From Sinorhizobium fredii (GTDB lineage Bacteria > Pseudomonadota > Alphaproteobacteria > Rhizobiales > Rhizobiaceae): a stretch of DNA of 64,000 nucleotides. The notes beneath the pieces were generated by a model, which ran no database searches, had not been told where the DNA came from, and worked only from the letters and a program-made list of their open reading frames with translations. How positions within the stretch are numbered: the first letter of the stretch is position 1; every line of letters begins with the position of its first letter. The stretch spans positions 1,446,501 to 1,510,500 of the forward strand of contig NZ_CP024307.1 of NCBI RefSeq assembly GCF_002944405.1, written 5' to 3'. The position numbers and the translations under genes are program-made. Of the stretch, positions 24,269-53,441 are shown one piece after another.

Positions 24269-24353
24269 GGAGGGATGCCCGAGTGGTTAAAGGGGACGGA
24301 CTGTAAATCCGTTGGCTCAGCCTACGTTGGTTCAAATCCAACTCCCTCCACCA
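24269..24353 (+). tRNA. tRNA-Tyr (anticodon GTA)
   Basis: An 85-base class II tRNA with a long variable arm (GGCTCAGCC plus flanks). The acceptor GGAGGGA pairs with TCCCTCC, the anticodon loop is CTGTAAA, the T-loop is TTCAAAT and the CCA end is encoded. It is 23 bp upstream of tRNA-Gly and shares its promoter. Confidence 0.98.
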
Positions 24354-24376: not shown

Positions 24377-24450
24377 GCGGGTATAGCTCAATGGTAGAGC
24401 AGCAGCCTTCCAAGCTGAATACGCGGGTTCGATTCCCGCTACCCGCTCCA
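24377..24450 (+). tRNA. tRNA-Gly (anticodon TCC)
   Basis: A 74-base tRNA with acceptor GCGGGTA/TACCCGC, anticodon loop CTTCCAA, T-loop TTCGATT and encoded CCA. It follows tRNA-Tyr in the order known from E. coli, where tufB lies shortly downstream. Here the fucose gene cluster intervenes. Confidence 0.98.
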
Positions 24451-24564
24451 GCCTCTTTGCCGCCTCAGAAGCAGTGACTAGCCTCCGCGTAACGAACTGC
24501 CGCTGAGCCGACGATAAATTCATCTTCGGCGAGCCAATGAAGTGAGCTACAAGTTGGTTGGCTC

Positions 24565-25356
24565 TCAGTGCAGGCTTAGGGCTTCTGTCAGGGTAAGCAA
24601 CCGTGCCAATGCTTCATCAAGCTTCTGTGCTCGTTTGTCGTCAACGTGCTCGATGAATGCACATGTGACGACCGATGTTGCATCCCCATGTGGGCCGAGG
24701 ATCGGAGCGCTTATATCAGTTACGCCAACAAGTTGGCCGGAAGCGCCAATGCGGTAACCCTGTCGACGGACCGCGTCGATTTCATCGCCCGTTGCCCCCT
24801 GCAACAGCTTAGGCGAAGCCACCCCCCACTGTTTGAGTGTTTCGTCCAAGCGTTCGGGGGCTTGGAATGCAATCAACGTTATGCCCGAACCCGTCGTAAA
24901 AAGTTCGAGCTGACTGCCAACCCTGGCGCGAAACTCCCAATGAGACGTGGGGCTTGCCTGAGCGACGATGAGACCGGTTCCGAACTCCGGGATCACGAGA
25001 TGGCAGGATTGGTCCGTTTGGCGCGCAAAGTCGTCCATCAAAGGCTGCGCACTGGCGACCAGTCGTCGATATGGAGGGTATCGATTGGCTAGAAGGAACA
25101 TCTTCATGGACAGGGAGTAGCGGTCGCCACCCTCCGACCGGGCTACGTACCCCCTCGCGACCAGACGCTCAAGCATGCGAAAGATCTGCGATGGGCTCAG
25201 TCCCATTTCCCGCACGATCTCGGTCCGGGTCATGCCGCCGCTTTGATTGGCCAATATCTCGAGGATATCCAAGCCCTTGTCGAGCGCGGGTGCGCGGTAT
25301 TTCTCGTCCTGATCCAATCCTTCCGCCAATACGGGTTTTTGCGGTTTCGTTGCCAT
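24565..25356 (-). CDS. IclR-family transcriptional regulator of the L-fucose cluster
   Basis: The 263-residue protein has an N-terminal winged helix (about residues 20-80: ALDKGLDILEILANQSGGMTRTEIVREMGLSPSQIFRMLERLVARGYV) and a C-terminal IclR effector domain. The effector-domain part includes FTTGSGITLIAFQAPE and GYRIGASGQLVGVTDISAPILGPHGDATSVVTCAF. IclR proteins usually repress the adjacent operon and release it on binding a pathway metabolite. It diverges from the KDF dehydrogenase gene with an 8-bp inverted repeat between them. The ligand is unknown; L-fucose or 2-keto-3-deoxy-L-fuconate is plausible. Confidence 0.92.
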   Translation of the reverse strand: MATKPQKPVLAEGLDQDEKYRAPALDKGLDILEILANQSGGMTRTEIVREMGLSPSQIFRMLERLVARGYVARSEGGDRYSLSMKMFLLANRYPPYRRLVASAQPLMDDFARQTDQSCHLVIPEFGTGLIVAQASPTSHWEFRARVGSQLELFTTGSGITLIAFQAPERLDETLKQWGVASPKLLQGATGDEIDAVRRQGYRIGASGQLVGVTDISAPILGPHGDATSVVTCAFIEHVDDKRAQKLDEALARLLTLTEALSLH

Positions 25357-25427
25357 TCACGCCCTCCAGACCCGGACTCATAGCGATGTCTACAAAAAAA
25401 GAATATCGGCATCGACTTGTCAAAGCC

Positions 25428-25460
25428 GTTCGTATGTGAAACATTATTTTATATACGAAC
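25428..25460. promoter_or_regulatory. candidate IclR operator between the divergent genes
   Basis: GTTCGTAT (25428-25435) and ATACGAAC (25453-25460) are a perfect 8-bp inverted repeat with a 17-bp AT-rich spacer. They lie 20-50 bp upstream of the first operon gene and just after a CTTGTC/TTGTCA -35-like box (25416-25422) that also reads TTGACA on the other strand. Position and symmetry fit a repressor site covering the operon promoter. The exact -10 cannot be fixed. Confidence 0.6.
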
Positions 25461-25480
25461 TTTGGCGCACGGGGGGAATT

Positions 25481-26218
25481 ATGCGTCTGAAGGACAAGAC
25501 CATTCTCGTCACGGCAGGCGGTCAGGGCATAGGCAGGGCAAGTGTTCTCGCATGCCGTGACGAAGGCGCGCGGGTGATTGCAACCGATATCAACGGGGCG
25601 GCACTCGAAGGGCTGGACGGGGTCGAGACATTGCTGCTGGACGTCACTGACCGGCAGGCTGTCGAAGCCGTTGCGGCGCAAGTAGGTCCTGTCGATGGCC
25701 TCTTCAATTGCGCCGGGGTCGTGCACAACGGAACGCTTCTCGATATCGCCGACGATGACTGGGCCTTTGCCTTCGATCTGAACGTCACGGCGATGATGCG
25801 TCTTACGCGTGCTTGCCTGCCCGGGATGCTCGATCGGGCGGCCAACACCGGAACCGCTTCGATCCTGAATATGGCCTCGATGGCTTCCTCGATAAAGGGT
25901 TTTGCCAATCGGACAGCCTATGGTGCCAGCAAGGCGGCGGTCATCGGTCTGACCAAGGCGATTGCCGCGGATTTCGTCAAGCAAGGCATTCGTTGCAATG
26001 CCATCTGCCCGGGCACGGTCGACACGCCCTCGCTGCGCGGACGTATCGCTTCAGCTGCCGATCCGGAGCAGGCCGAGAAAGACTTTATCGCGCGCCAGCC
26101 CATGGGCCGCCTGGCGACGGTCGATGACGTCGTCCCCTTGGTTGTTTTCCTGCTGTCCGATGAAAGCCGGTTCGTTTCAGGACAGGCCATGCTGGTGGAC
26201 GGCGGCGTGACCATCTAA
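25481..26218 (+). CDS. 2-keto-3-deoxy-L-fuconate dehydrogenase (SDR family)
   Basis: A 245-residue classical short-chain dehydrogenase. The NAD site is TAGGQGIGRA at 11-20 followed by Asp in VIATDING, the active site is MASMASSI...YGASK, and the tail is SRFVSGQAMLVDGGVTI. It is closest in pattern to the KDF dehydrogenase/BDH2-like group, which oxidises 2-keto-3-deoxy-L-fuconate to the 2,4-diketo acid with NAD+. That fits the downstream fuconate dehydratase. It starts at ATG 25481 after GGGGGGA and is the first gene of the operon. Confidence 0.85.
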   Translation: MRLKDKTILVTAGGQGIGRASVLACRDEGARVIATDINGAALEGLDGVETLLLDVTDRQAVEAVAAQVGPVDGLFNCAGVVHNGTLLDIADDDWAFAFDLNVTAMMRLTRACLPGMLDRAANTGTASILNMASMASSIKGFANRTAYGASKAAVIGLTKAIAADFVKQGIRCNAICPGTVDTPSLRGRIASAADPEQAEKDFIARQPMGRLATVDDVVPLVVFLLSDESRFVSGQAMLVDGGVTI

Positions 26219-26239
26219 GCGCGCGGGAGGAGCGGCGTC

Positions 26240-27763
26240 ATGAGCGAGCTGGTGCGGATGGAGGGGATCGACAAGAGTTTCCCGGGCGTACACGCGTTAA
26301 AATCCGTCGATTTCGAACTTCGGCCCGCCGAGGTCCACGCGCTGATGGGCGAGAACGGCGCGGGTAAGTCGACATTGATGAAGGTGCTGTCCGGTATCTA
26401 TCAACCAGACAGCGGTCGCGTGCTCGTGGACGCCCAGGAAGTGTCCATTCGAACTCCCAAGACGGCACAGGATCTCGGCATCGGCATCATTCATCAGGAA
26501 CTGGCGTTGATGCACGACCTCACCGTCGCCCAGAACATCTGGATCGGCCGGGAGCCGCGCCTTTCCTTGGGACGGCTTGACGAGGCGAAGCTGAATGCGG
26601 ATACCGCCGCCATCTTCGCCGGCATGAACATCCGCATGGATCCGCGCACGCCGGTCGCGGGCCTCACCATCGCCCGCCAGCAGATGGTAGAGATCGCAAA
26701 GGCGCTGAGCTATCGGTCGCGCGTTTTGATTATGGACGAGCCGACGGCCGCGCTCAACGATGCGGAGATCAGCGAACTCTTCACCATCATCCGCCGCCTC
26801 AAGGACGAGGGCGTCGGCATCATATACATCAGTCACAAGATGGACGAGATCAAACGCATCTCCGACCGTGTGACCGTGATGCGCGACGGTGCCCGTGTCG
26901 GCACGGTCCAGGCTGAGGAAACGCCGATCTCCAAGATCATCTCGATGATGGTCGGGCGCGAACTGAAGGACGAGACGGTCGTCATCCCCGATCTCTCCGC
27001 CGCAGAAACGGCGCTGGAGGTGCGCGGCATCCGGCGCGGCAAGGAGCTGAAGGATATCAGCTTTGACCTGAAGAAGGGCGAGATCCTCGGCTTTGCCGGG
27101 CTGATGGGCGCCGGGCGAACCGAGCTTGCCCGAGCCATTTTTGGCGCCGAGCCGATCGAAGCGGGCGAGATTTTCGTGCAGGGTAAGCCGGTTCGGATCA
27201 CCAGTCCCGCCGACGCGGTGCGCGCCGGCATCGGCTATCTCTCGGAAGATCGCAAGCATTTCGGTCTCGCGCTCGGCATGGATGTACGCGCCAACATCGC
27301 CATGGCGAGCCTGCCGCGTTATGCCGACGCCATCGGCCGGATCGACGAGCCGGCGCTTGGGTCCATCGCCGCGGAGTACATCGCCAAGCTGAACATCCGT
27401 ACGCCGGGCGACCGGCAGGAGGTGCGGCTCTTGTCGGGTGGCAACCAGCAGAAGGTAGTCATCGCCAAATGGCTGTTGCGGGATTGCGATGTGCTGATCT
27501 TCGACGAGCCGACCCGCGGCATCGACGTCGGCGCCAAGGCCGAAATCTATCGTCTTCTCAACGAGCTGGCCAGCGCCGGCAAGGCGATCATCGTTATTTC
27601 CAGCGAGCTGCCGGAAGTGCTGCGCCTTTCCCATCGTATCGCCGTCATGTGTGAGGGACGCTTGACAGGCATCCTGCCGGGCGGTGCGGAGCAGGAGAAG
27701 ATCATGGAATTGGCAACACAACGGCAAGACCGCAGCATGAGGGGACGCTCTAATCATGGGTGA
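26240..27763 (+). CDS. sugar ABC transporter ATP-binding protein (RbsA type), probable L-fucose uptake
   Basis: A 507-residue tandem ATPase of the CUT2 (ribose/galactose) class. The first half has Walker [10 protein letters not shown] at residues 37-45 and Walker [12 protein letters not shown], but its signature is degenerate (LTIARQQ). The second half has a degenerate Walker A (GLMGAGRTE), an intact LSGGNQQK signature from residue 398 and [13 protein letters not shown]. That asymmetry is normal for RbsA-type proteins. The gene overlaps the permease start by 8 bp. The substrate is inferred from the catabolic genes around it. Confidence 0.93.
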
Positions 27764-28733
27764 AAAGGCAAGCGGGCGCGGCAGCGCCCAACAGAAACTC
27801 CTGGCCTTTGCCAGCCTGATCGTTCTGGTCATCGGCTTCTCCTTGGCGAGCCCGAATTTCTTCCAGGTGTCCAACATCATGGCCATCCTGCAGGCGACCT
27901 CCGTCAATGGCGTGCTGGCGGTCGGTGTGACGCTGATCATCATTACCGGCGGCATCGACCTGTCGATCGGTACGCTAATGACCTTCTGCGCCGTCATGAC
28001 CGGCGTAGTGCTGACCTGGGGCGGCCTGCCGCTGCCGCTCGGCGTGCTGGCGGCGGTCGGCACGGGGGCGGCCTGCGGGCTGGTGTCCGGCAGCCTGGTG
28101 GCGCGTATGCGCATTCCGCCCTTCATCGCCACGCTCGGCATGATGCTGGTGTTGAAGGGCCTGTCGCTGATCGTTACCGGCACCAAGCCGATCTATTTCA
28201 ACGATACGCCCGGCTTCACCACCATCGCGCAGGGCTCGCTGATCGGCGAGGTGATCCCGGCCTTCCCGGTGCCGAACGGTGTCTTAATGCTTTTCATCGT
28301 GGCCGGTGCCGCCGCCTGGATGCTGGGGCGCACCGTGCTCGGCCGCTACACTTTCGCGCTCGGTTCGAACGAAGAGGCGGTGCGGCTGTCCGGCGTCAAC
28401 ACCGATTTCTGGAAGATCGCGATCTACACGCTCTCGGGCGCCGTCTGCGGCATTGCCGGCCTTCTCATTGCCAGCCGCCTGAATTCCGCCCAGCCGGCGC
28501 TCGGCCTCGGCTACGAGCTGGAAGCCATTGCGGCGGTGGTGATCGGCGGCACCAGCCTGTCGGGCGGGCGCGGCACGATCGTGGGCACGCTGATCGGCGC
28601 ACTGATCATGTCGGTGCTCACCAACGGCTTGCGCGTCCTGTCGGTCGCGCCGGAATGGCAGACGGTCGTGACCGGCGTGATCATCATCGTCGCCGTTTAT
28701 GCAGACCAGATGCGCCGGCGCGAGCGGAAATAG
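27756..28733 (+). CDS. sugar ABC transporter permease (RbsC type)
   Basis: A 325-residue CUT2 permease with about eight to ten hydrophobic segments. It carries the family motifs [13 protein letters not shown] near residue 66, GNPxxx-type loop [15 protein letters not shown], and the ATPase-contact region [41 protein letters not shown]. The start overlaps the ATPase gene, implying coupled translation. One permease gene implies a homodimer in the membrane. Confidence 0.93.
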
Positions 28734-28800
28734 CCGGCAACGAGGCCGCTGATTTCCCACGGTCGAAAATTTCATGCAGTAGTGAACACAAGGAGGAAAC

Positions 28801-29745
28801 ATGTTCACGAGACGGACTCTACTGAGTGCAGTTGCAGCAATTTCGCTGCTCGGTGCAGCGACAGGGGCAAGCGCACAGGACAAGCTCTATGTGCCGCTTA
28901 TTTCCAAGGGCTTCCAACACCAGTTCTGGCAGGCCGTTAAGGCTGGCGCCGACCAGGCGGGAGCCGAATTCGGCGTCGAGGTAACGTTCGAGGGGCCGGA
29001 CAACGAAAGCCAGGTTGACAAGCAGATCGACATGCTGGCAGCCGCCCTCGCCAAGAAGCCGGCGGCCATCGGCTTCGCCGCCCTCGACAGCCAGGCGGCA
29101 ATTCCGCTGCTGAAGCAGGCGAAGGAGGCCAACATTCCGGTCATCGCCTTCGATTCCGGCGTTGACAGCGATATCCCCGTTGCGACGGCATCGACTAACA
29201 ACGTCGCCGCAGCGGCGCTCGCAGCCGACACGCTCGCCGAACTGATCGGCGATGCCGGCAAAGTCGCCGTTGTCGCCCACGACCAGACCTCGCGCACCGG
29301 TGTTGATCGTCGCGACGGCTTTGTCAACCGGATGAAGGAAGCGCATCCTAACATCGAGATCGTTGCGATCGAGTACGGCGGCGGCGACCATTTGAAATCG
29401 ACGGAGATCACCAAGGCGATCCTGACAGCCAATCCCGATATCAAGGGCATCTTCGGCACGAACGAGGGCTCGGCGGTCGGCGTGGTCAACGGCGTGAAGG
29501 AATCCGGCGCCAAGATCGTGATCATCGGCTACGATTCCGGCAAGGCGCAGAAGGATGCAATCCGCGAGGGCTTGATGGCAGGCGCGATCACTCAGAACCC
29601 GGTGGGTATCGGCTACGAGACGGTCAAGGCCGCCGTCGCTGCTTCCAAGGGTGAGAAGGTCGAGAAGAACATCGATACCGGCTTCTACTGGTATGACAAG
29701 ACCAATATCGACGACCCGGAAATCTCCGCAGTCCTCTACGATTGA
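28801..29745 (+). CDS. sugar ABC transporter substrate-binding protein (RbsB type)
   Basis: A 314-residue periplasmic type I binding protein with a signal peptide (MFTRRTLLSAVAAISLLGAATGASAQ). The mature part has the RbsB-like start LYVPLISKGFQHQFWQAVKAGADQAG, a hinge segment PVIAFDSGVDSD and GIFGTNEGSAVGVVNGV. The ribosome site AGGAGG is strong and a hairpin follows the stop, consistent with the excess of binding protein such systems need. Probable ligand is L-fucose, by context only. Confidence 0.92.
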   Translation: MFTRRTLLSAVAAISLLGAATGASAQDKLYVPLISKGFQHQFWQAVKAGADQAGAEFGVEVTFEGPDNESQVDKQIDMLAAALAKKPAAIGFAALDSQAAIPLLKQAKEANIPVIAFDSGVDSDIPVATASTNNVAAAALAADTLAELIGDAGKVAVVAHDQTSRTGVDRRDGFVNRMKEAHPNIEIVAIEYGGGDHLKSTEITKAILTANPDIKGIFGTNEGSAVGVVNGVKESGAKIVIIGYDSGKAQKDAIREGLMAGAITQNPVGIGYETVKAAVAASKGEKVEKNIDTGFYWYDKTNIDDPEISAVLYD

Positions 29746-29758
29746 TCACACCATCCAA

Positions 29759-29780
29759 CCCGGAGACCAAACTCTCCGGG
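29759..29780 (+). terminator. intercistronic hairpin after the sugar-binding protein gene
   Basis: CCCGGAGA (29759-29766) and TCTCCGGG (29773-29780) form a perfect 8-bp stem with a 6-base loop, 14 bp after the binding-protein stop. Only TCCTCT follows, so it is probably a partial terminator or a 3'-end stabiliser that raises binding-protein mRNA over the distal enzyme genes. Confidence 0.6.
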
Positions 29781-29800
29781 TCCTCTATCGAGACGGCAAA

Positions 29801-30643
29801 ATGAAACTTCTTCGCTATGGCCCCGTCGGGCGGGAAAAGCCCGGTCTCCTCGACCACGATGGTCGTATCCGTGATATCTCCGGGTATGCAGCCGACATTG
29901 CTGGCGACGTGTTGTTGCCGGAGAACCTCAGCCGACTAGCGGCACTCGATGTCTCCAGCTTGCCCCTGGTCGAAGGGAATCCCCGAATCGGGCCCTGCGT
30001 CGGCCGCGTCGGCAAGTTCATCTGCATCGGCCTCAACTATGCCGACCACGCCGCCGAAACCGGCGCCGAGATCCCCAAGGAGCCGGTGGTCTTCAACAAA
30101 TGGACCAGCGCTATCTGCGGCCCGAACGACGACGTCGAAATCCCGCGCGGCTCGGTCAAGACCGACTGGGAAGTGGAACTCGGCATCGTTATCGGCAAGG
30201 GTGGCCGCTATATCGAGGAGGCGGATGCGCTGTCGCATGTTGCCGGCTATTGCGTCGTCAACGACGTATCCGAGCGCGAATGGCAGATCGAGCGCGGCGG
30301 CACCTGGGACAAGGGCAAGGGCTGCGACACGTTCGGCCCGATCGGCCCCTGGCTGGTGACGCCGGACGAAGTCCCCGATGTCGGCAATCTGAAAATGTGG
30401 CTGGAGGTCGACGGCCATCGCTACCAGAACGGCTCGACCGCGACGATGATATTCGGCGTGGCCCATATCATCAGCTATCTCACACGCTTCCTATCCCTGC
30501 AGCCCGGCGACGTGATTTCCAGCGGGACGCCGCCCGGCGTCGGGCTCGGTCAGATTCCCCCTGTCTTCCTGAAGGGCGGCGAGACGATTCGGCTCGGCAT
30601 CGAAGGACTAGGCGAGCAAACGCAGAAGGTTATCAAGACATGA
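29801..30643 (+). CDS. FAH-family 2,4-diketo-3-deoxy-L-fuconate hydrolase
   Basis: The 280-residue protein has the fumarylacetoacetate hydrolase fold: IGLNYADHAAETGAEIPKEPVVFNKW, the metal-binding TDWEVELGIVIGKGG, NDVSEREWQ, KGCDTFGPIGPWLVTPDEV and SSGTPPGVGLG. In the non-phosphorylative L-fucose route an FAH-family enzyme cleaves 2,4-diketo-3-deoxy-L-fuconate to pyruvate and L-lactate. Its position directly before the fuconate dehydratase gene (ATGA overlap) supports that reading. Ureidoglycolate lyase-like or acylpyruvase activity is the alternative. Confidence 0.85.
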   Translation: MKLLRYGPVGREKPGLLDHDGRIRDISGYAADIAGDVLLPENLSRLAALDVSSLPLVEGNPRIGPCVGRVGKFICIGLNYADHAAETGAEIPKEPVVFNKWTSAICGPNDDVEIPRGSVKTDWEVELGIVIGKGGRYIEEADALSHVAGYCVVNDVSEREWQIERGGTWDKGKGCDTFGPIGPWLVTPDEVPDVGNLKMWLEVDGHRYQNGSTATMIFGVAHIISYLTRFLSLQPGDVISSGTPPGVGLGQIPPVFLKGGETIRLGIEGLGEQTQKVIKT

Positions 30644-31914
30644 AGATTACTGGTCTTCGCACCGTCGACGTGCGCTTCCCGACAAGCCAGCACCTGGATG
30701 GGTCTGACGCGATGAACCCCGATCCAGACTATTCTGCCGCGTATGTGGTCCTGGAGACGGACGGTCCGCACGAAGGCCACGGTCTCACCTTTACTATCGG
30801 CCGCGGCAACGAGATTTGCGTGGCGGCCATCGAAGCACTGCGTCCGCTGGTCGTTGGCCTCGACATGAACTGGATCGCGCAGGACATGGGGCGCTTTTGG
30901 CGGCATGTAACGTCCGATAGCCAGCTTCGCTGGATTGGCCCCGACAAGGGAGCCATCCATCTCGCAACGGGCGCGGTCGTGAATGCGGCCTGGGACCTTT
31001 GGGCGAAAATCGAGGGCAAGCCGGTCTGGCGGCTGGTTGCGGATATGTCGCCTGAGGAGCTCGTTCGCTGCATCGATTTCCGTTACCTCACCGATTGCAT
31101 TACGCCGGAATGGGCGCTCAGCTTCCTGACGGAGCAGGCTCGGGAAAAGCAAGAGCGCACCGCCATCCTGAAGGCGGAGGGCTATCCCTGTTATACGACT
31201 TCAGCCGGTTGGCTCGGTTATGACGACGCCAAGCTGCGCCGCCTGTGCCGTGAGGCGGTTGATGCGGGCTTCCGCCACGTCAAGATGAAGGTCGGCCGCG
31301 ATATCGAGGACGACATTCGCCGCCTTACCATCGCGCGCGACGAGGTCGGGCCGGACGTCAATCTGATGATCGACGCCAATCAGGTCTGGGAAGTCGACCA
31401 GGCGATTGACTGGGTGAAGAAGCTTGCCTTCGTTAACCCTTGGTTCATCGAAGAACCGACAAGCCCTGATGATGTGGAGGGCCATCGCATGATACGGGAG
31501 GGCGTTTCCCCCGTGCAGGTTGCGACCGGCGAGATGTGCCAGAACCGCATCCTGTTCAAGCAGTTCATCATGCGGGGCGCTATCGATGTGGTGCAGATCG
31601 ACAGTTGCCGTCTGGGCGGGCTGAACGAAGTCCTGGCCGTGATGCTGATGGCAGCCAAATACGGCCTGAAGGTTTGCCCCCATGCGGGTGGCGTCGGCCT
31701 TTGCGAGTATGTGCAGCACATGTCCATGATCGATTACCTCTGCATCGCCGGAACACGGGAGGGACGGGTGATCGAGTTTGTCGATCATCTTCACGAGCAC
31801 TTCATCAATCCATGTGTCGTCCGCGGCGCTGCCTACATGCCGCCGCAGGCCCCCGGTTTCTCGATCGAGATGAAGCCGGAGAGTCTCGAAAACTACCGTT
31901 TCAGAGGCGCATGA
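30640..31914 (+). CDS. fucD: L-fuconate dehydratase
   Basis: The 424-residue enolase-superfamily enzyme starts TVDVRFPTSQHLDGSDAMNP and contains SQLRWIGPDKGAIH, both hallmarks of fuconate dehydratase. Catalytic residues are in place: base Lys217 in KMK, metal ligands Asp245 (IDANQ), Glu271 (IEEPTSPDD) and Glu298 (TGEMCQN), and the second acid/base His348 in HAGGVGLCE. It dehydrates L-fuconate to 2-keto-3-deoxy-L-fuconate. The start overlaps the previous stop as ATGA, and its own stop overlaps the next start. Confidence 0.94.
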   Translation: MKITGLRTVDVRFPTSQHLDGSDAMNPDPDYSAAYVVLETDGPHEGHGLTFTIGRGNEICVAAIEALRPLVVGLDMNWIAQDMGRFWRHVTSDSQLRWIGPDKGAIHLATGAVVNAAWDLWAKIEGKPVWRLVADMSPEELVRCIDFRYLTDCITPEWALSFLTEQAREKQERTAILKAEGYPCYTTSAGWLGYDDAKLRRLCREAVDAGFRHVKMKVGRDIEDDIRRLTIARDEVGPDVNLMIDANQVWEVDQAIDWVKKLAFVNPWFIEEPTSPDDVEGHRMIREGVSPVQVATGEMCQNRILFKQFIMRGAIDVVQIDSCRLGGLNEVLAVMLMAAKYGLKVCPHAGGVGLCEYVQHMSMIDYLCIAGTREGRVIEFVDHLHEHFINPCVVRGAAYMPPQAPGFSIEMKPESLENYRFRGA

Positions 31915-32702
31915 TGGATCTCCATCTGCAAGGCAAGGTCGTCGTGGTAACCGGTGGCGGCTCGGGTATCGGTGCCGGTATAACGGAGGTTCTTTCTGAG
32001 GAAGGCGCGCGGCCGGTCATTGTCGCCCGGCGGTCGCCTGATCCGGATTGGCTTAGCCGGACCGGTGCAGATTTTGTGCAGGCAGAACTCTCCAATGATG
32101 ATGCCTGCCGGTCTGCGATCGAGACCGTGCGGTCTCGACACGGTACTGTCTACGGCCTCGTCAACAATGCCGGCGCGAATGATGGGGTCGGCATTGACCG
32201 GGGCCCGGCTGCCTTTCGCGAAAGCCTGAACCAAAATCTCGTCCATTACTATACGATGGTCCACGCGCTCAGGGACGATCTGCGGGCAACGCACGGCGCC
32301 ATTGTCAACATCAGTTCCAAGACAGCCTTGACCGGTCAGGGCGGCACCTCGGCCTACGTTGCCGCCAAAGCCGCCCAACTCGGGCTTACCCGCGAATGGG
32401 CTGTCGAATTTCTGCCTGACCAGGTCCGCGTAAATGCCATCGTCGTCGCGGAGGTAATGACACCGCTCTACAGGCGCTGGCTGGATACCTTGCCTGACGG
32501 CGAAGCAACACTCCAACAAATCGTACGCCGCATTCCGTTGGGCCACCGCATGACGACGGCACGCGAAATCGCCGACACTTGTGCGTTCCTGTTGTCGAGC
32601 CGCGCCAGCCATATGACGGGGCAGTGGCTGTTCCCCGATGGCGGCTACACCCATCTTGACCGCGCCATTGGCGGGACTTTCGAAAAAGCTCCCGATCAGT
32701 GA
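31914..32702 (+). CDS. L-fucose dehydrogenase (SDR family)
   Basis: A 262-residue short-chain dehydrogenase with TGGGSGIG at 13-20, NNAGANDGVGID, the active site NISSKTAL...YVAAK and the tail TGQWLFPDGGYTHLDRAI. The segments NDGVGID, ALTGQGGTSAY and the THLDRA ending match the L-fucose dehydrogenase group known from Burkholderia and Xanthomonas. It oxidises L-fucose to L-fucono-lactone with NAD(P)+. Either of two overlapping ATGs (31911, 31914) can start it. It is the last gene of the operon; no strong terminator follows. Confidence 0.87.
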   Translation: MDLHLQGKVVVVTGGGSGIGAGITEVLSEEGARPVIVARRSPDPDWLSRTGADFVQAELSNDDACRSAIETVRSRHGTVYGLVNNAGANDGVGIDRGPAAFRESLNQNLVHYYTMVHALRDDLRATHGAIVNISSKTALTGQGGTSAYVAAKAAQLGLTREWAVEFLPDQVRVNAIVVAEVMTPLYRRWLDTLPDGEATLQQIVRRIPLGHRMTTAREIADTCAFLLSSRASHMTGQWLFPDGGYTHLDRAIGGTFEKAPDQ

Positions 32703-33129
32703 ACTGGCTTGTGGCCACGCGGGTTGCAGGTGTCACAATTTCCACGATTAATCGCCGGGACGGCGGACGACGAGTCACCTGCAGGCGCAATACCTCCTTC
32801 GAGAGTTGATCTTCTGCCGAGCGCGCTGCGCGACCTGAGCGAGGTCGACATGTCGGTCACCGTCGTGGGCCAGAAACTTGGTCGCATTGGACGTAAGTGT
32901 GCCACTTGAGAAAAGCATCACATAGCGTTGATTTATCGGGCTTTTTCGATTTGGGAAGTTTATCCGGTCTCGCGCGGCGCGTCTTCTTTCCGATGTTTAG
33001 AAGAGGCCGGGACCTTGCCGTCCGGGCGGACGCAATTAAGTCTTGCGCAAATGCCGCGAAACCCTTAAACGGCTGCACAAACCGGCCTCGCCGGCTGATC
33101 CATCGTATTTGACCACAGGAAGCGTACCC
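32703..33129. other. intergenic region between the fucose operon and tufB
   Basis: The 427 bp contain no recognised gene. The longest frame (32709-32909, 66 codons) lacks a ribosome site and family features. The tufB promoter must lie here; a CTTGCC box with a weak -10 (TAAGTC) 17 bases later sits in the 33014-33042 region, but it is not convincing. The left part may be scar sequence from the insertion that brought in the fucose genes. Confidence 0.5.
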
Positions 33130-34305
<1,176 letters not shown>

Positions 34306-34650: not shown

Positions 34651-35580
34651 GTGAAGAAGCGGATTCTCTTTACCGGTGGCGCCGGTAAGGCCGGCCGGCA
34701 TGCCGTGCCCTATCTCGTCGAAGCCGGCTATGAAGTGCACAATGTCGACCTTGTTCCGCTCGACAGCCCCGGCGTCACCAACCTGATCGCCGACATCACC
34801 GACAGCGGCCAGATGTTCAACGCGCTGTCGATGCATCGGGATTTTCCCGACATGGAACAGGCCAGGGGGGAACAGAGCCGCGCGGATCAGGGCAGGGGGC
34901 CGCAACCCTTCGATGCCGTGGTCCACTTCGCGGCCATTCCACGCATCCTCATCAAGCCGGACAACGAGACCTTCCGGGTCAATGTGATGGGCACCTACAA
35001 CGTCATCGAGGCGGCGGTGAAGCTCGGCATCCGCAAGATCATCGTCGCGTCGAGCGAGACCACCTACGGGGTCTGCTTTGCCGAGGGGCATCGCGACTTC
35101 CACAGCTTTCCGCTGGAGGAGGACTACGACGTCGATCCGATGGATTCCTACGGGCTCTCCAAAGTGGTAAACGAAAAGACCGCCCGCGCCTTTGCGGAGC
35201 GGTCCGGCTTCGATATCTATGCACTGCGCATCGGCAACGTGATCGAGCCGCACGAATACGAACGCTTTCCCCACTTTTTCGCGCATCCGGAGATCCGCAA
35301 GCGGATTGCCTGGAGCTATATCGATGCGCGCGACCTGGGGCAGATCGTCAAGCTTTGCATCGAAAAGGACGGGCTCGGCTTCGCGGTCTTCAACGCCTGC
35401 AACGACACCGTGTCGGCCAACACGCCGACCCGCGAGCTCGCCAGGCAGTTCTATCCGAACGTGCCCTTCACCAGAGAGATCGGCGAGTTCGAGGGGCTTC
35501 TGTCGAACCGAAAGATCCGCGAGGTCCTCGGCTTCAAGGAGGAGCATGATTGGCGGAAATATGTGCAGCCTGGCACGTAG
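34651..35580 (+). CDS. NAD-dependent epimerase/dehydratase family protein
   Basis: A 309-residue extended short-chain dehydrogenase. The N-terminal Rossmann motif is FTGGAGKAGRHAV, followed by Asp in VHNVDLV, the active site ASSETTYGV and SYGLSKVVNEK (YxxxK), and a C-terminal substrate domain. It starts at GTG 34651 after GGAGGAG; the upstream ATG lies in the tuf terminator region. A hydrophilic insert (EQARGEQSRADQGRG, near residue 70) interrupts the fold. The nucleotide-sugar or uronate substrate is unknown. It sits between tufB and tRNA-Trp. Confidence 0.85.
   Translation: MKKRILFTGGAGKAGRHAVPYLVEAGYEVHNVDLVPLDSPGVTNLIADITDSGQMFNALSMHRDFPDMEQARGEQSRADQGRGPQPFDAVVHFAAIPRILIKPDNETFRVNVMGTYNVIEAAVKLGIRKIIVASSETTYGVCFAEGHRDFHSFPLEEDYDVDPMDSYGLSKVVNEKTARAFAERSGFDIYALRIGNVIEPHEYERFPHFFAHPEIRKRIAWSYIDARDLGQIVKLCIEKDGLGFAVFNACNDTVSANTPTRELARQFYPNVPFTREIGEFEGLLSNRKIREVLGFKEEHDWRKYVQPGT

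Positions 35581-52265: not shown

Positions 52266-53441
<1,176 letters not shown>

Follow-up and report, generated by a model that had tools for sequence, protein, structure and literature searches.

How did an eight-gene sugar-catabolic block come to lie between a glycine transfer RNA (tRNA) gene and tuf in Sinorhizobium fredii, and which sugar does it serve? The locus was analysed within a 64,000-nucleotide stretch (the window, G000:C1:1446501-1510500) of a 6.56-Mb genome in four contigs. We consider it very probable that the block is a horizontally distributed operon for non-phosphorylating L-fucose catabolism, which would have been inserted at this site and lost its lactonase gene, with a resident lactonase or spontaneous hydrolysis filling the gap. 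As a kind of operon it is known, and it was probably acquired horizontally; the lactonase step is possibly supplied in trans by a resident gene. The sequence itself establishes the gene families and active-site residues, the extra DNA relative to empty sites in relatives, and a cluster without lactonase.

Predicted enzymes, transporter and putative operator

The first-pass annotation had placed eight genes at 24565-32702, between tRNA-Gly and tuf, and open reading frame (ORF) calls together with a tRNA search bear this out:

24269-24353, + strand: tRNA-Tyr, left neighbour of the insertion (ARAGORN, Rfam)
24377-24450, + strand: tRNA-Gly, left neighbour of the insertion (ARAGORN, Rfam)
24481-32898, no strand: extra segment of ~8.4 kb, edges good to a few bases (BLAST against the empty site L151 of genome G021)
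24565-25356, - strand: IclR-family regulator, divergent (Pfam PF09339 and PF01614)
25428-25460, + strand: putative IclR operator, an aligned block common to nine clusters
25481-26218, + strand: short-chain dehydrogenase/reductase (SDR), predicted L-2-keto-3-deoxyfuconate (KDF) 4-dehydrogenase, FucF-like (best PDB matches, the L-KDF dehydrogenase, L-KDFDH, of Herbaspirillum huttiense)
26219-26239, + strand: 21-bp junction, site of the lactonase gene in relatives
26240-27763, + strand: CUT2-type ATP-binding cassette (ABC) transporter ATPase (65% identity to the ATPase of three Herbaspirillum loci)
27756-28733, + strand: ABC transporter permease (PF02653)
28801-29745, + strand: sugar-binding protein (PF13407)
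29801-30643, + strand: FAH-family hydrolase, predicted 2,4-diketo-3-deoxy-L-fuconate hydrolase, FucG-like (best PDB match 8gsr)
30640-31914, + strand: predicted L-fuconate dehydratase (FucD/FucC), enolase superfamily (2hne, E 1.5e-167)
31911-32702, + strand: SDR, predicted L-fucose 1-dehydrogenase (FDH), FucA-like (NF052481, 397.7 bits)
33130-34305, + strand: tuf, right neighbour of the insertion

The regulator lies on the minus strand and the remaining seven genes on the plus strand, where overlaps at 27756/27763, 30640/30643 and 31911/31914 fit a single operon. In the proposed scheme, L-fucose would be imported by the ABC transporter, oxidised by FDH to L-fuconolactone, opened by a lactonase to L-fuconate, dehydrated by FucD to KDF, oxidised by the KDF dehydrogenase to 2,4-diketo-3-deoxyfuconate and finally split by the FAH enzyme into pyruvate and L-lactate. 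According to PMC11199699, this non-phosphorylating route 3 (FucA, B, C, F, G) occurs in H. huttiense, Xanthomonas campestris and Acidovorax.

With its score, the final SDR exceeds the cut-off (300 bits) of NF052481, the NCBIfam model for L-fucose dehydrogenase, as expected of the L-fucose 1-dehydrogenase in route 3. The dehydratase aligns with the L-fuconate dehydratase 2hne over residues 3-421, as expected for this route; 2hne is the closest of the function-named matches, the nearest PDB entry being 4ip4, which bears no specific function name. Lys217, Asp245, Glu271, Glu298 and His348, which we take to be the catalytic residues, are present where the first-pass annotation had put them, within stretches aligned to 2hne, and the fuconate-type start region that it had also pointed out, DGSDAMNPDPDYSAAYV, is common to both proteins. 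The first SDR, with its closest PDB structures in the L-KDFDH of H. huttiense, keeps the equivalents of Ser137, Tyr151, Lys155, Arg148, Arg192 and Arg214 (6/6 identical by hand count in the alignment to 8y4j), that is, the Ser-Tyr-Lys residues and the three arginine ligands named for L-KDFDH in PMC11199699, as required of an L-KDF 4-dehydrogenase. The FAH protein finds its best PDB match in 8gsr, an L-2,4-diketo-3-deoxyrhamnonate hydrolase, aligned over residues 2-277. Family models and solved relatives support the earlier gene assignments and L-fucose route, from which we infer the activities and the substrate. A second FAH homologue, 66% identical, is encoded at G000:C4:1324244-1325071 (L184), and inspection of its neighbours by eye revealed no further pathway gene. 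Contig C4 resembles a Sinorhizobium sp. CCBAU 05631 plasmid, to which 78% of an 18-kb query aligns at 99.3%. In each of the 33 genus genomes, one or more FAH matches at 1e-60 are found.

The transporter proteins are 65-72% identical to those of three Herbaspirillum loci. In Herbaspirillum seropedicae, an ATPase whose gene lies close to fucose genes is of specific importance on L-fucose (PMC11378808), a result that lends indirect support to L-fucose import by the window transporter. The cluster resembles that of HSERO_RS05250, described in the same source, in having this transporter type next to L-fucose dehydrogenase and L-fuconate dehydratase, although the identities given above are to proteins of genus-mates rather than to the H. 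seropedicae protein itself, and the gene order differs from that of the three Herbaspirillum loci. As in route 3, homologues of the dehydrogenase, dehydratase, KDF dehydrogenase and hydrolase stand in one cluster; unlike route 3, the cluster is without lactonase (FucB), and no mutarotase (FucM) was recognised in it. Outside the cluster, the genome has one RhaM-type mutarotase gene, at C1:673363.

The gap between the IclR and KDF dehydrogenase genes holds the best-aligned block common to nine clusters, which in the window comprises the dyads TTCGTATGTGAA (25429) and TTTATATACGAA (25448) with outer arms GTTCGTAT/ATACGAAC. The window has two copies of a strict 12-base pattern, which the S. sojae cluster (L118) shows at one place and that of S. 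alkalisoli (L117) lacks; we therefore regard 25428-25460 as no more than a possible IclR operator. Promoter and terminator scans yielded no more than in shuffles, and an Rfam scan found no RNA beyond the two tRNAs.

The lactonase step and the resident fucose locus

The operon had been described as complete-looking, a description that does not hold, since the L-fucono-1,5-lactonase step of route 3 has no gene in the cluster and has one in the clusters of close relatives. Family-model scans found no lactonase among the eight genes, other lactonase families such as SMP-30 not having been searched for. An amidohydrolase similar to the cluster lactonases is present in 51 of 80 related loci, some of which end at contig ends, and in 45 of those 51 the identity is at least 35%. 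In Shinella (L008), Pannonibacter (L010), Phycocomes (L011) and Paracoccus (L013), the gene lies between those for the KDF dehydrogenase and the ATPase, and the same slot is filled in Aminobacter (L030 and L034) and Variovorax (L015). Another Rhizobiaceae genome (G138, L191) has the full nine-gene order, with the seven common operon genes 83-96% identical and the IclR gene 68%, and a lactonase-like gene is found somewhere in seven of the eight related stretches fetched from the family (L191-L198). The window shares with S. alkalisoli and S. sojae a spacing of 21 bp between KDF dehydrogenase and ATPase, with similar junctions, which suggests that a single deletion of the lactonase gene lies behind all three. 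The Shinella pollutisoli cluster (L008, 9735-10001) has the opposite gap: it keeps the lactonase, and the interval from binding protein to dehydratase contains no FAH hydrolase.

With the lactonase gene of the cluster presumably lost, the step would be covered by a resident lactonase or by spontaneous hydrolysis of the lactone. Four amidohydrolase (PF04909) matches occur in the genome, and only one of them matches the Shinella lactonase (C1:23027-23842, 45% identity). The corresponding gene, C1:23018-23851, lies 1.45 Mb from the window operon and is the candidate resident lactonase, found at 78% identity or more in 25 of the 33 genus genomes, including all three that carry the operon. The eight genomes without a lactonase of this type (G003, G004, G012, G013, G014, G018, G022 and G023; best matches 29-40%) all carry a dehydratase 71-75% identical to that of the window.

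This candidate belongs to a second, resident fucose locus (G000:C1:15000-33000, L130; fucose genes at ~15-24 kb), which the first-pass annotation overlooked, as it did the fact that the cluster has no lactonase. The locus lies next to phaZ and trpF, a PRA isomerase gene, and encodes a galactarate/altronate-dehydratase-type enzyme, an aldo/keto reductase, a sugar ABC transporter, a Zn-type dehydrogenase and the lactonase. Its 329-residue binding protein (C1:18339-19325), found at 92% or more in 33/33 genus genomes, is orthologous to SMc02774 of S. meliloti: its core ends are Q33 and N329, and K, R, N and Q stand at core positions 10, 148, 199 and 245, matching the SMc02774 core from Q33 to N329 with Lys10, Arg148, Asn199 and Gln245, as given in PMC3454389. 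The same paper reports that SMc02774 binds L-fucose with a dissociation constant of 3.6 nM in S. meliloti. The gene next to the locus matches PHB depolymerase, and its first residues are those encoded by the phaZ (SMc02770) primer of PMC2867953; in S. meliloti, the chromosomal position of phaZ is close to 24 kb (PMC12542648).

The window operon shares a CUT2 transporter with the SMc02774 locus (PMC3454389), but the counterpart of that locus is the phaZ-linked one, which, unlike the window, has the aldo/keto reductase and the galactarate/altronate-dehydratase-type enzyme. The window binding protein is 36% identical to the SMc02774-type protein, with the four ligand-contact positions kept in the alignment. 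We considered applying the SMc02774 data directly to the window binding protein and rejected this, as the published residues all fit the resident protein; the affinity is thus not direct evidence for the window transporter, the annotation of which should not lean on it.

Having the orthologue of a high-affinity L-fucose binder already in the resident locus makes a second fucose system look redundant, and D-KDP is a further substrate bound by L-KDFDH (PMC11199699), so the operon might instead serve one or more related sugars (L-galactose, D-arabinose, or L-fucose among several), with L-fucose secondary. We find this unlikely, given that FDH scores above the cut-off of the L-fucose dehydrogenase model and that the dehydratase is closest to L-fuconate dehydratase among the function-named PDB matches, 4ip4 being nearer and without a specific name.

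The probable insertion site and the distribution of the operon

The stretch with tRNA-Tyr and tRNA-Gly occurs in 32 of the 33 genus genomes, at full length in 31 and in pieces only in S. sojae (G020), with no match in G019. We fetched 30 genus loci at this tRNA pair, leaving out G030, and in 27 of them the distance from tRNA-Gly to the start of tuf is 242-264 bp; the other three are G006, G010 and the window genome, where it is 8,679 bp. Against the cleanest empty site (L151), BLAST homology stops at window position 24480 and resumes at 32899; the block would have entered ~30 bp past tRNA-Gly, upstream of tuf. The claim that it was inserted between these two genes gains support from the empty sites together with a patchy distribution at two chromosomal addresses, and an insertion near 24481-32898 is well supported by these comparisons.

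Within the genus, a dehydratase at least 90% identical is found in three genomes and one of 71-75% in 19, and 11 have no close match, one of these (G030) being 70% complete. The window genome has no second close dehydratase. No genome carries both types, an exclusion that is not significant, as only ~1.7 such genomes would be expected by chance. The other two carriers at 90% or more are S. alkalisoli and S. sojae, with the operon at 1.88-1.90 Mb, away from the tRNA. Their FDH-side flank is common to both and maps to 2.25 Mb in the window genome, and the IclR-side flank is not common and has only a weak match there. Across the Rhizobiaceae sample, 177 of 394 genomes hold a strong full-length dehydratase match, and 8 of 394, the window genome included, reach at least 85%; tuf is present in none of the eight family stretches fetched (82-89%). 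The same cluster at the same spot throughout the Rhizobiaceae, which would have spoken against insertion, is thus not what we find, and the patchy distribution, empty sites and differing addresses are those expected of horizontal acquisition.

In a tree of 102 dehydratases, that of the window belongs to a starred ten-member clade, which also includes Pannonibacter, Paracoccaceae, Shinella and the other two Sinorhizobium carriers and is apart from the 19 other Sinorhizobium dehydratases. In this FucD tree the window is nearer to Paracoccaceae and the other two Sinorhizobium nearer to Shinella (supports 87 and 84), and a concatenated tree of 16 chosen clusters unites the window with Shinella and the other two Sinorhizobium, to the exclusion of all others (83/85), with an inner support of 43/60; given this lack of inner resolution, one or two acquisitions are both possible. 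Third-position guanine-cytosine (GC) content is 0.63-0.70 at the cluster ends, 0.75-0.88 in the middle genes, 0.87 in tuf and 0.77 in rlmB, and the lower values at the ends lend weak support to a foreign origin.

The weak grouping of the three Sinorhizobium carriers with Shinella would also suit an operon ancestral in the genus and lost from most species. Two chromosomal addresses in three genomes and empty sites of near-constant length in 27/30 loci speak against such a history, which we consider improbable; given the distribution, an ancestral origin at the window address is unlikely.

Relatives do show integrated DNA at this tRNA. Copies of the 47-bp tRNA-Gly 3' end lie 15, 42 and 55 kb apart in G006 (L188, contig C161), G010 (L189/L190, contig C53) and S. 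sojae G020 (L185/L186, contig C1), respectively. In G006 and G010 the tRNA is next to an ORF matching a PHROG integrase family (E ~5e-11 to 8e-11; no Pfam match); G006 has, in addition, a DNA-ejection-type ORF. Because of the repeated ends and the integrase-like ORFs, tRNA-Gly looks like an integration hot spot. In the S. sojae edge stretches (G020:C1:985000-1004000 and 1040000-1055000), each with the 47-bp end once, ARAGORN finds neither tRNA-Tyr nor tRNA-Gly; both genes may sit in the DNA that separates these stretches, or may have been replaced.

That the window segment is likewise a remnant of an integrative element using tRNA-Gly as its attachment site, as these relatives might suggest, is very improbable, since the 47-bp end has no second copy in its own genome, the insertion lies ~30 bp beyond the tRNA and no integrase is found among the eight genes (other ORFs of at least 90 residues there overlap these and were not scanned). 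Nor do the edges share a repeat: no 6-base word is common to both, and the one common 5-base word is off the borders. The combination of integrase and direct attachment repeats that marks an integrative element was therefore not found, and we rejected integration at the tRNA attachment site.

The surroundings are not purely housekeeping, as had been claimed, given these elements at tRNA-Gly in relatives and a gene for an NAD-dependent epimerase-like protein after tuf (34651-35580, before tRNA-Trp); G021 (94%) and S. sojae (89%) have this gene 3' of tuf as well. A second tuf copy lies at 52266 in the window.

A possible pathway in two parts

Several points weigh against the reading of the block as an inserted L-fucose operon completed from elsewhere. 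L-galactose and D-arabinose share the relevant stereochemistry and could also be substrates. The resident lactonase scores 207.6 bits against NF052480, under the cut-off of 400, as do the Shinella and Pannonibacter cluster lactonases (a Comamonadaceae one, L023, is above it), and scores of this kind do not fix its substrate. The FAH protein reaches 418.7 bits against NF053535, below the curated cut-off of 500. Moreover, FucG and LRA6 act on one substrate, an intermediate that the fucose and rhamnose routes have in common (PMC11199699), so the FAH protein alone cannot separate the two sugars. Finally, no mobility gene or repeat accounts for the movement of the block, and its source is not settled by a concatenated tree with such inner support.

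More tentatively, and with somewhat less than an even chance in our view, the travelling operon may have shed its lactonase because its recipients (3/3 Sinorhizobium carriers) have a resident one, giving a hybrid of foreign and native parts, with three interchangeable fuconate-dehydratase states (the window type, the 71-75% type and neither) replacing one another across the genus. A literature search, with most subscription papers outside it, returned no paper on fucose catabolism in Sinorhizobium with horizontal transfer. If the proposed reading is true, a catabolic cassette that brought no mobility genes would have settled close upstream of a translation gene, and one pathway would be completed by parts at two loci.

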